Source: an uncultured Saprospiraceae bacterium
GTDB taxonomy: Bacteria > Bacteroidota > Bacteroidia > Chitinophagales > Saprospiraceae
NCBI GenBank assembly: GCA_937995755.1
Contig: CALKJD010000019.1
Coordinates: forward strand, 1 to 64,000
Length of the DNA stretch: 64,000 nt
Reading direction: 5' to 3'
Shown: positions 60,660 through 63,895 of the stretch, piece after piece
How positions within the stretch are numbered: the stretch's first letter is position 1
Layout of the letters: every line of letters begins with the position of its first letter
The notes under the pieces: model-generated
What the model was told of the DNA's origin: nothing
Databases searched by the model: none
The model's input: only the letters and a program-made list of their open reading frames with translations
Made by a program: the position numbers and the translations under genes

Positions 60660-61679
60660 ATGAATGATAAGAAAGGTGAAAAAGTGATCATTTTGGCAAT
60701 AGAATCATCTTGTGATGACACTTCTGCGGCTGTAATAGTGGATGGAGAGATAAAAAGCAATCGAATTGCTAACCAAAGTGTGCACGAACAATATGGCGGT
60801 GTAGTACCCGAACTGGCCTCTAGGGCACATATGGCTAATATCGTTCCTGTCGTCAAATCAGCATTACAAGATGCAGGAGTAACTCAAAGTGAACTTAGTG
60901 CCATTGGATTTACAAGAGGTCCTGGATTATTAGGCAGTTTGATCGTAGGGGTCTCTTTTGCTAAGTCTTTAGCACTCAGTTTAGATATACCCTTGATCGA
61001 AGTACATCATATGAATGCGCATATTCTAGCTCACTTTGCAGAAGATCCGAAACCTAAGTTCCCATTCCTCTGCCTTACTGTATCAGGAGGCCATACACAG
61101 ATCGTAAGAGTAGACGACTACCTAGACATGACTATCTTGGGAACAACTATAGATGATGCAGCAGGTGAGGCATTTGACAAAACTGGAAAAATACTAGGTC
61201 TCCCATATCCTGCTGGACCGATAATAGACAAATACGCTAGAGAAGGAGAAGCTATATATACATTCACTGAACCCAAAGTCGATGGACTCAACTTTAGTTT
61301 TAGTGGTCTAAAAACCAGTATCATGCATTTTCTTCAGAAACAAATGAAGAAAGATGATCAATTCATCAATAACAACATGAATAATATCTGCGCATCAGTA
61401 CAAGCACGCATAGTCTCCATACTACTTAACAAACTAACGATTGCTGCCGAATCATCTAATATTACTCAAATAGCAATAGCTGGTGGCGTCTCTGCGAATA
61501 GTGGACTGCGTAATGGCCTAATCGATCTTTGTCAAGAAAAAGGTTGGAATCACTTTATACCTGCATTTCAATATTGCACGGACAACGCTGGCATGATTGC
61601 CGTTTCCGCATACCAAAAATACTTAGCTGGTCAATTTATTGGCCAAGAGGTAACTCCCAAAGCTCGTATGGAAATGTAA
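60660..61679 (+). CDS. tsaD: tRNA N6-adenosine threonylcarbamoyltransferase
   Basis: TsaD is the catalytic subunit that transfers threonylcarbamoyl to A37 of ANN-decoding tRNAs. Metal-binding HxxxH is in VHHMNAHILAHF. Other hallmarks are LAIESSCDDTSAAVI at the start, VVPELASRAH, RGPGLLGSLIVG, SGGHTQIVRVDDY and DAAGEAFDKTGKILGLPYP, then IAGGVSANSGLR and CTDNAGMIAVSAY. The length of 339 residues is normal. It starts at ATG 60660 and is transcribed alone on the plus strand; no clear terminator of its own is seen. Confidence 0.97.
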   Translation: MNDKKGEKVIILAIESSCDDTSAAVIVDGEIKSNRIANQSVHEQYGGVVPELASRAHMANIVPVVKSALQDAGVTQSELSAIGFTRGPGLLGSLIVGVSFAKSLALSLDIPLIEVHHMNAHILAHFAEDPKPKFPFLCLTVSGGHTQIVRVDDYLDMTILGTTIDDAAGEAFDKTGKILGLPYPAGPIIDKYAREGEAIYTFTEPKVDGLNFSFSGLKTSIMHFLQKQMKKDDQFINNNMNNICASVQARIVSILLNKLTIAAESSNITQIAIAGGVSANSGLRNGLIDLCQEKGWNHFIPAFQYCTDNAGMIAVSAYQKYLAGQFIGQEVTPKARMEM

Positions 61680-61822
61680 TACAGATAGACAAGGAATTTT
61701 TACAATTTGGATCTCTTTCAACTCAAGGAAGGATTCCAACATAATTCTCTTTAGAGATTGATTATGGATAGTACAACTACACATAAATTCTTCTATACAA
61801 CAAGCCAATAACTTTGGGGCAT

Positions 61823-61863
61823 AAAAAAAGGGGAAGAAAAAGCGAGCGCTTTTGTCTATCCCC
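61823..61863 (-). terminator. Terminator on the minus strand between tsaD and ssrA
   Basis: Outer GGGG/CCCC and inner AAAAGCG/CGCTTTT arms form a hairpin. Read on the minus strand it is followed by TTTTTTT, the classical intrinsic terminator. The plus strand has no T-run after it, and no minus-strand protein gene lies upstream, so it probably ends a small RNA. Confidence 0.7.
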
Positions 61864-61926
61864 TAGATAATTAGAATGCTTCTTATATAACTTTAAACAG
61901 TTAAACTGTTATTCTATCTCTTTCGA
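61823..61926 (-). ncRNA. Candidate minus-strand small RNA of about 104 nt
   Basis: Reading the minus strand from about 61926, the RNA would open with a short leader. An AGAUAGAAU segment can then pair with a later AUUCUaauUAUCU. Between them a perfect AACAGU/ACUGUU hairpin can form. It ends with a strong GGGG...CCCC hairpin and seven Us. It has its own promoter (TTG, 20 bases, TAGATTTG). The size resembles Bacteroidota 6S RNA, but the central open bubble of 6S cannot be confirmed by eye, so the family is left open. Confidence 0.5.
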
Positions 61927-61931
61927 TAACA

Positions 61932-61962
61932 CAAATCTATTACCATTATTTGAATAATTCAA
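61932..61962 (-). promoter_or_regulatory. Promoter for the candidate small RNA
   Basis: On the minus strand TTG (61962-61960) and TAGATTTG (61939-61932) are 20 bases apart, a good match to the Bacteroidota consensus. Transcription would start near 61926. Confidence 0.55.
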
Positions 61963-62173: not shown

Positions 62174-62538
62174 GGGGCTGACTGGTATCGACGGTAGAGT
62201 TGATTGGTTAGTAAGCACGCCGGAGCACTGATGATACACTCCGTTAACAAATGATGATCAAACCATAATTGGCGAAAATAGATTCGCACTAGCTGCCTAA
62301 TCAAGGATTAGTAAGCTTTTAGTCCTTGCGCTTGATGCCTGATACACAGCGTAATGACTTAAAAACTTCGGGTAAGGAAGACTGGGTACTTTGACAGTAA
62401 TCCGAGATTAATTGAAGATAAGATGATGGTGTCGCCGCTTTTATGCCTACCTGATTACGAAAATCTGAATAAAAGCTAAGCATGTAGAAAGCTCTCCGGT
62501 GCTATGTCCGGACCAGGGTTCGAATCCCTGCAGCTCCA
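62174..62538 (+). ncRNA. ssrA: Transfer-messenger RNA (ssrA)
   Basis: The RNA rescues stalled ribosomes. The 5' end GGGGCUGACUGGUAUCGAC and the 3' end CAGCUCC-A form the acceptor stem (one G-U pair), and the T arm CAGGG-TTCGAAT-CCCTG is perfect. The tag frame begins at GGC 62271 and reads GENRFALAA before the TAA at 62298-62300. A CGGAG/CTCCG helix (62221 onward) precedes the tag, and AAGGA/TCCTT follows the stop, as expected for tmRNA helices. The 3' CCA is not encoded, so it must be added later. Length is about 365 nt. A terminator lies just downstream. Confidence 0.95.
62271..62300 (+). other. tmRNA proteolysis tag frame, GENRFALAA
   Basis: The resume codon is GGC and the frame ends in TAA. 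The last residues ALAA are the usual degron for ClpXP-type proteases. Canonical Bacteroidota tags resemble GENNYALAA; here N-Y is replaced by R-F. Confidence 0.85.
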
Positions 62539-62568
62539 CTTAAAACGACTCAATTGAGTCTCTCGACT

Positions 62569-62756: not shown

Positions 62757-63176
62757 TTATAAGATCACGATCTTTTCAGAATGCACTTCACCTGCATCAT
62801 TTGACAAGATTAAGTAATAGGACCCTGAAGGTACATCACTCATATCCACCTTACTCTTAGACTTGCTAAGCTTTACCGTCTTTACGGTTTCATTGCTATC
62901 TTCATCTAACAATTCCGCTTGAGTATACTTCACAGTACCCTCCGCAATGTCAAATGATTTAGTTCGCCAATTGAAATGTGAGACCTGCTCAGGTATATCG
63001 TAATATACCTCAGTACTAGCCTCGCTGGATTCTATAATCTCTTCATCTATAGATGAGAAATCAGTTAGGAAATCTGATTGAACTGTACTACTAATATCAG
63101 CGGTTAGATTTTGAGCTGAAGCGATGTTTACAAATAAAAACATCACCGTAATACATCTAAATAGTTTTGCACACAT
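62757..63176 (-). CDS. Small secreted protein with a sorting-domain-like fold, paralogue 1
   Basis: A 139-residue exported protein with signal peptide MCAKLFRCITVMFLFVNIASAQ. After an acidic linker comes VYYDIPEQVSHF and a short beta region ending SGSYYLILSNDAGEVHSEKI. This end strongly recalls the last strands of T9SS type A sorting domains, with YYDIP where YPNP is usual. The mature protein is essentially only this domain. It is about 40% identical by eye to its neighbour at 63479-63895, with the same MC start, AQNL cleavage region, VYYDIP and SNETVK. The two are tandem duplicates. The function is unknown. Confidence 0.65.
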   Translation of the reverse strand: MCAKLFRCITVMFLFVNIASAQNLTADISSTVQSDFLTDFSSIDEEIIESSEASTEVYYDIPEQVSHFNWRTKSFDIAEGTVKYTQAELLDEDSNETVKTVKLSKSKSKVDMSDVPSGSYYLILSNDAGEVHSEKIVIL

Positions 63177-63478: not shown

Positions 63479-63895
63479 TTATAACACAACGATCTTTTCA
63501 GAATGGACTTCACCTGATTCTTTCGTCAAAATCAAATAATACGTTCCAGTAGAAACATCACTCATGTCAACTCTATCTACTCCTTTCAAACTAAAGCTCT
63601 TCACTGTCTCGTTACTAACCACTTCTAGTAATTCAACATAAGAGTAGTTCGATAACTCTTTTGAAATTTTGAATGTTTTTGACTGGCTGTCATACTCCGC
63701 AGTTTGTACTGGGATATCGTAATACACACCATTATCCGCCTCATCAAAATCGGAAAACCCAATATATACAGTTGGGAAATCGGTCACATAATTTAAATCA
63801 TTACCATTACTAGTATTAGCTACTAGATTTTGAGCGTTCACAGCACTCGAAAATAAGAACAATCCAATAATACTTGTCAATAACCTTACACACAT
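63479..63895 (-). CDS. Small secreted protein with a sorting-domain-like fold, paralogue 2
   Basis: A 138-residue exported protein with signal peptide MCVRLLTSIIGLFLFSSAVNAQ. The mature part holds NGVYYDIPVQTAEYDSQ, VELLEVVSNETVKSF and the ending VDMSDVSTGTYYLILTKE, then GEVHSEKIVVL. Identity to paralogue 1 is highest at the ends and in the VYYDIP, SNETVK and GEVHSEKIV motifs, and lost in the linker. As in paralogue 1 there is no separate functional domain besides the sorting-like fold. It may be displayed by T9SS or act as a decoy or coat component; this is inference. Confidence 0.65.
   Translation of the reverse strand: MCVRLLTSIIGLFLFSSAVNAQNLVANTSNGNDLNYVTDFPTVYIGFSDFDEADNGVYYDIPVQTAEYDSQSKTFKISKELSNYSYVELLEVVSNETVKSFSLKGVDRVDMSDVSTGTYYLILTKESGEVHSEKIVVL

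Follow-up and report, generated by a model that had tools for sequence, protein, structure and literature searches.

The window analysed here, a stretch of 64,000 nucleotides from an uncultured Saprospiraceae bacterium, contains the open reading frame of tsaD (60660-61679, plus strand) and the tmRNA gene ssrA (62174-62541, plus strand), the latter recognized both by Rfam RF00023 (106.5 bits) and by ARAGORN. Between these two genes the minus strand carries a promoter (61962-61932), a predicted small RNA of 105 nt (61927-61823) and an intrinsic terminator. Both neighbours lie outside the RNA, which is divergent from ssrA and convergent with tsaD. Further along the window two ORFs of 139 and 138 amino acids (62757-63176 and 63479-63895, minus strand) lie in tandem and resemble each other, with signal-peptide-like starts and similar C-termini (...GEVHSEKIV.L). 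A similar ORF is present in the related genome G001 (L013:5395-5832), and the proteins are perhaps small type-IX-secreted paralogs.

The promoter elements are as described in the original prediction, namely a TTG at −33 (61960-61962, minus strand), read from the sequence, and a −7 box TAGATTTG (61932-61939, minus strand), separated by 20 bases. The box follows the consensus TAnnTTTG of the Bacteroidota housekeeping promoter, where it occupies positions −12 to −5 (PMC9723704), and because of this spacing the transcription start was placed at A61927. The 3' end of the transcript is set by the terminator (61823-61864, minus strand), in which an AGGGGA..UCCCCU stem with an inner GCG/CGC stem is predicted to fold ahead of seven Ts (61829-61823); this is the GGGG/CCCC hairpin with seven Us that had been noticed before. 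Since only the minus strand has a T-run behind the hairpin, the terminator should act in that direction alone. No ATG, GTG or TTG occurs within the 105-nt RNA of the window or within its copy in G001. The copy in the related genome G003 has one ATG and one TTG, neither of which is shared with the other copies, and a coding RNA was rejected for these reasons.

Taken alone, the promoter and fold layout is weak evidence for an RNA gene. The promoter pattern occurs once in the window where 1.4 occurrences are expected by chance (shuffled window), and the fold of the whole RNA is mildly better than that of shuffled sequences (z = −2.0; 9 of 200 shuffles were as good), with the terminator contributing most. 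Ahead of the terminator, the RNA folds no better than its shuffles (p 0.43). These figures would be compatible with a chance promoter and a chance hairpin that form no RNA gene, but promoter, hairpin, core and terminator are conserved in three species at neutral saturation, as detailed below, which makes such a coincidence extremely improbable.

The conservation became apparent when the element was compared by blastn with 101 relatives. G001 (87%) and G003 (86%), both congeneric with the window's genome (G000), gave matches, and the homologous RNAs measure 107 and 106 nt, respectively; the three genomes with the RNA are all MAGs or drafts. Two further matches, in G063 and G090 from other families, cover only the promoter-like stretch; the rest of the RNA is missing there, and they were taken as chance. 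The alignment with G001 and G003 ends at the promoter on one side and at the terminator on the other, and the spacers beyond cannot be aligned. Within these limits the TTG is kept in all three species, the −7 box has the form TACATTTG in both G001 and G003, and the terminator is identical throughout. In a near-invariant block at the 3' side (61822-61894, minus strand) 72 of the 73 columns are identical, whereas the 5' part of the RNA varies. For tsaD, next to the RNA, fourfold degenerate sites have a pairwise identity of 33-37%, with 18 of 119 sites identical three ways, and synonymous sites between the three species are, on these counts, saturated. Against such a background the near-identity of the block argues for very strong selection on the primary sequence of the 3' two thirds of the RNA.

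The case for an RNA gene is thus one of conservation, which by sequence comparison lifts the layout above chance. The element has its own promoter and terminator, lacks an ORF and is conserved as a unit, which is what characterizes a small non-coding RNA gene. The original prediction of a minus-strand small RNA between tsaD and ssrA, unexplained by any protein gene, has in this way gained comparative support in three species, including the expected conservation of this strand, on which promoter and RNA are kept in G001 and G003. We consider it very probable that minus-strand positions 61823-61927 are a transcribed non-coding RNA gene. As far as seen, the gene appears restricted to one genus of the Saprospiraceae. 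A rough scan of 29 ssrA loci in other genera, with some orientations assigned automatically, gave no case of the promoter pattern upstream.

The surroundings of the RNA are less constant than the RNA itself. In G001 the gene order is as in the window, with tsaD in the same position, but ssrA has the opposite orientation with respect to the sRNA and to tsaD (L013 = G001:C13, 6032-6399). G003 shares the divergent orientation of ssrA with the window; its tsaD lies on another contig, and a transaldolase-like gene takes the place of tsaD. This gene has the same direction as the RNA and starts about 130 nt past the terminator, an arrangement that would suit a cis-acting leader or attenuator of the next gene. 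In the other two of the three genomes the next gene is the convergent tsaD, and a leader function is accordingly most unlikely. The constancy of the promoter-to-terminator unit despite changing neighbours points to a gene of its own and argues against a leader, an extension of ssrA and an antisense RNA of tsaD. In G002, another congener, the contig ends within tsaD, and no tmRNA scored above the cut-off in this genome. Besides a tmRNA match cut at the end of C101, G003 has a second, divergent one (G003:C52:20899-21236, minus strand, 58.6 bits), which perhaps reflects contamination.

Part of the conserved block is not confined to the sRNA locus. A 25-nt core, AAGAAGCATTCTAATTATCTAGGGG (61860-61884, minus strand), which would comprise a seed and the first arm of the terminator, occurs once in the window, and no occurrence is expected by chance at up to three mismatches. 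A second, exact copy is present once per genome in G000 (G000:C11:15407-15431, minus strand), G001 and G003, in each case a few bases past the stop codon of orthologous genes whose proteins are 68-69% identical. In G003 the core within the sRNA deviates at one position. In the 298 other genomes of the order that entered the search the core was not found at up to three mismatches. Both copies abut terminators that are themselves well conserved; the terminator after the 3'UTR copy differs from that of the sRNA and has little in common with it beyond GGGG/CCCC. The fourth congener, G002, does possess an ortholog of the gene (68%), but with a different 3'UTR that lacks the core. The protein encoded by this G002 gene (L081 = G002:C34) ends in IYKI instead of IYKR. 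For homologs from other genera no core was seen in the 3'UTRs, several of these loci having been read in a wrong frame, and an exact search for the 20-nt inner core in all loci, which was likewise negative, agrees with this inspection. Viral spread of the core was considered and dropped, with no exact core present in viral contigs.

The product of the gene that carries the second copy is a secreted protein in which a choice-of-anchor V / Reeler domain is combined with a type IX sorting domain (anchor-V). Upstream of this gene, on the same strand, are genes for an ECF sigma factor, for a protein with what looks like a single transmembrane stretch, which has no family match and may be an anti-sigma factor, and for a small protein whose start resembles a signal peptide. 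Gene order, strand and short gaps suggest that this cluster forms one operon. Downstream of the anchor-V gene, porG is found in G000 and a 267-aa counterpart in G001. A likeness of the cluster's 161-aa protein to CpxP/Spy was suspected from its looks and found no confirmation. In view of the shared core, the sRNA and the 3' end of the anchor-V mRNA probably act in a common pathway.

Near the 5' end of the RNA a hairpin AACAG-UUUAA-CUGUU (61896-61910, minus strand) pairs in all three species, with arms AACAG/CUGUU, UUCAG/CUGAA and AACAG/CUGUU, so that two pairs are changed on both sides. These compensatory changes are suggestive of a conserved hairpin rather than proof of it, as they come from three sequences and the same result is reached by 59 of 500 shuffles. 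Covariation had also been expected of a long-range stem, AGAUAGAAU with AUUCU..UAUCU, that would enclose the hairpin. Here the expectation failed: the enclosing AGAUA/UAUCU pairing is available to the RNAs of the window and of G001 but not to that of G003. The folds of the three homologues consist of the short hairpin and the terminator only, with no long rod bearing a bubble.

This bears on the suggestion, made in the original prediction, that the RNA is 6S-like or a Bacteroidales-1 RNA. In all-family Rfam scans no family exceeded its threshold at this locus and none matched the RNA at E values up to 10, which leaves Bacteroidales-1 RNA without support; for 6S RNA (RF00013, RF01685) there is neither a model match nor a long rod with a central open bubble. 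A divergent 6S or Bacteroidales-1 RNA missed by the Rfam models would agree with the size of about 100 nt (as in 6S-Flavo), with the stand-alone gene and with the position near ssrA. The 6S-Flavo model (RF01685) moreover finds no true 6S RNA in the window's genome, which leaves that slot open. Yet the long stem is lost in G003, the bubble-in-duplex architecture is missing, and 6S RNA is widespread while the RNA described here is absent from other genera. The core, common to an mRNA 3'UTR, is not explained by a 6S RNA either. We therefore regard a 6S or Bacteroidales-1 identity as very improbable; the accompanying suggestion of some other regulatory RNA stands. When 11 Saprospiraceae genomes were searched with the 6S-Flavo model none gave a match over the cut-off, and G030 has a sub-threshold match of 38 bits and E 4.7e-4 (L272, G030:C56:29553-29701, minus strand). 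The 6S RNA of Saprospiraceae may be undescribed.

In view of the above, three explanations of the shared core can be considered. The first is that the core serves, in both places, as a conserved signal for termination or processing that has no role in trans, the intergenic transcript being a by-product. The location of both copies directly at well-conserved terminators would be consistent with this. A general signal, however, should not be limited to two copies per genome, and neither a separate promoter nor a covarying hairpin at the 5' end would be retained in a by-product, which renders this explanation improbable.

In the second explanation the two RNAs are base-pairing regulators. Each of the three genomes has two RNAs with the same conserved stretch, as is typical of paralogous sRNAs that share a seed, and the combination of a stand-alone gene and an mRNA 3' end with an invariant stretch ahead of the terminator is what a paralogous sRNA family would show. 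A two-member family of this kind, one member intergenic and one at an mRNA 3' end, is proposed on the parallel with FopS and RbpB of Bacteroides, since no Hfq match was found in the examined genomes of the genus and each genome encodes one RRM_1 protein. In this mechanism the A/U-rich stretch AAGAAGCAUUCUAAUUAUCU common to both RNAs would be the seed that pairs with the same target mRNA or mRNAs. The intergenic copy would be transcribed from its housekeeping-type promoter. No TAnnTTTG promoter is found within 700 nt ahead of the 3'UTR core, unlike in type I 3'UTR-derived sRNAs, which have an internal promoter, so this copy would need to be processed from the sigma-cluster mRNA, as type II 3'UTR sRNAs are (PMC7821165). 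Two signals could then feed one set of targets, probably by repression at translation starts as with GibS/FopS of Bacteroides. We give such a pairing family an about even chance of being correct.

The search for targets did not add to this. Complements of the core (20-mer, and a pattern allowing G-U pairs) are about as frequent as controls, and duplex energies at 1,689 start regions (2.4 Mb of G001) show no excess over 60 shuffled seeds. The top candidates are not conserved in orthologs, and no target of the core was found in the sigma cluster. The best leftover is at codons 12-19 of a 420-aa acyltransferase-like gene, where the predicted pairing amounts to −17.9 kcal/mol in G000, −20.7 in G003, −12.7 in G001 and −11.8 in G002 and where the protein sequence is conserved anyway. 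The first 27 nt of this coding sequence, ATGATATACGCTTTCTTGAAAGTGTGG, are identical in all four congeners, including the synonymous sites (L027, L280, L044, L279). The lack of target excess speaks against pairing, as does a small, weak hairpin that includes the core in the 3'UTR copies, by which the seed may not be single-stranded.

The same two observations favour the third explanation, in which the core binds a protein, for example the single RRM protein, or another RNA. The sRNA would then act as a decoy that titrates this factor off the 3' end of the sigma-cluster mRNA and alters the stability of that mRNA. Both RNAs carry the same sequence on the same strand, the hairpin of the 3'UTR copies is better than that of shuffles (p 0.008-0.03), and an RRM_1 protein is present. 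Against this, the sRNA copies do not preserve the hairpin, and a protein site rarely needs 25 invariant bases. A protein-binding or decoy role is a serious rival to base pairing, although we regard it as rather unlikely to be the correct explanation.

Among known systems, the two-member pairing family would most resemble FopS of Bacteroides, which has 9 intergenic, 4 antisense and 1 3'UTR-derived members that share a seed and an intrinsic terminator and repress translation starts of susC-like genes; the RRM protein RbpB binds these sRNAs and counteracts them (PMC11697453). As in FopS/GibS of B. thetaiotaomicron (PMC11697453), there are paralogous Bacteroidota sRNAs, a housekeeping promoter, a shared stretch and an intrinsic terminator, with a 3'UTR-derived member (FopS-14 in Bacteroides), no Hfq and an RRM protein. 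The differences are that there are two members here instead of 14, that the RNA is 105 nt long instead of about 65-70 nt, and that the shared stretch adjoins the terminator, whereas the seed of FopS is at the 5' end. No sequence likeness to FopS was indicated by Rfam matching, the presence of a FopS model in the Rfam copy not having been individually confirmed. CpxQ of enterobacteria, which is released from the 3' end of the cpxP mRNA and needs Hfq (PMC4817254, PMC7821165), is comparable in being a regulatory RNA at the 3' end of a secreted-protein mRNA in a stress-type gene cluster. It differs in its dependence on Hfq, which was not found here, and 3'-end processing is only postulated for the anchor-V mRNA. 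We know of no intergenic twin of CpxQ. The Flavobacterium sRNA Rfp18 acts on metalloprotease mRNAs and has no reported 3'UTR twin (PMC9723704); compared by its description, it is similar in being an intergenic Bacteroidota sRNA conserved at the genus level. The RNA is best placed in a new family of sRNAs whose general type is already known.

What is known of post-transcriptional control in Bacteroidota comes mostly from Bacteroides and Flavobacterium, and a limited text search of the literature gave no relevant paper on small RNAs of Saprospiraceae. We tentatively suggest, as a possibility of somewhat less than even likelihood, that in this Hfq-less Saprospiraceae lineage an ECF-sigma cluster and an sRNA gene beside ssrA are wired together via an invariant 25-nt element at both 3' ends, and that the cluster mRNA, while coding for a type-IX-secreted protein, doubles as a regulatory RNA or competes with one. 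If true, this would provide a test case for the use of paralogous sRNAs in bacteria without Hfq, in which a sigma/secretion cluster is linked to a stand-alone RNA, and it would test whether Bacteroidota generally make use of a stretch common to an intergenic gene and an mRNA 3'UTR, of which FopS-14 is an example.
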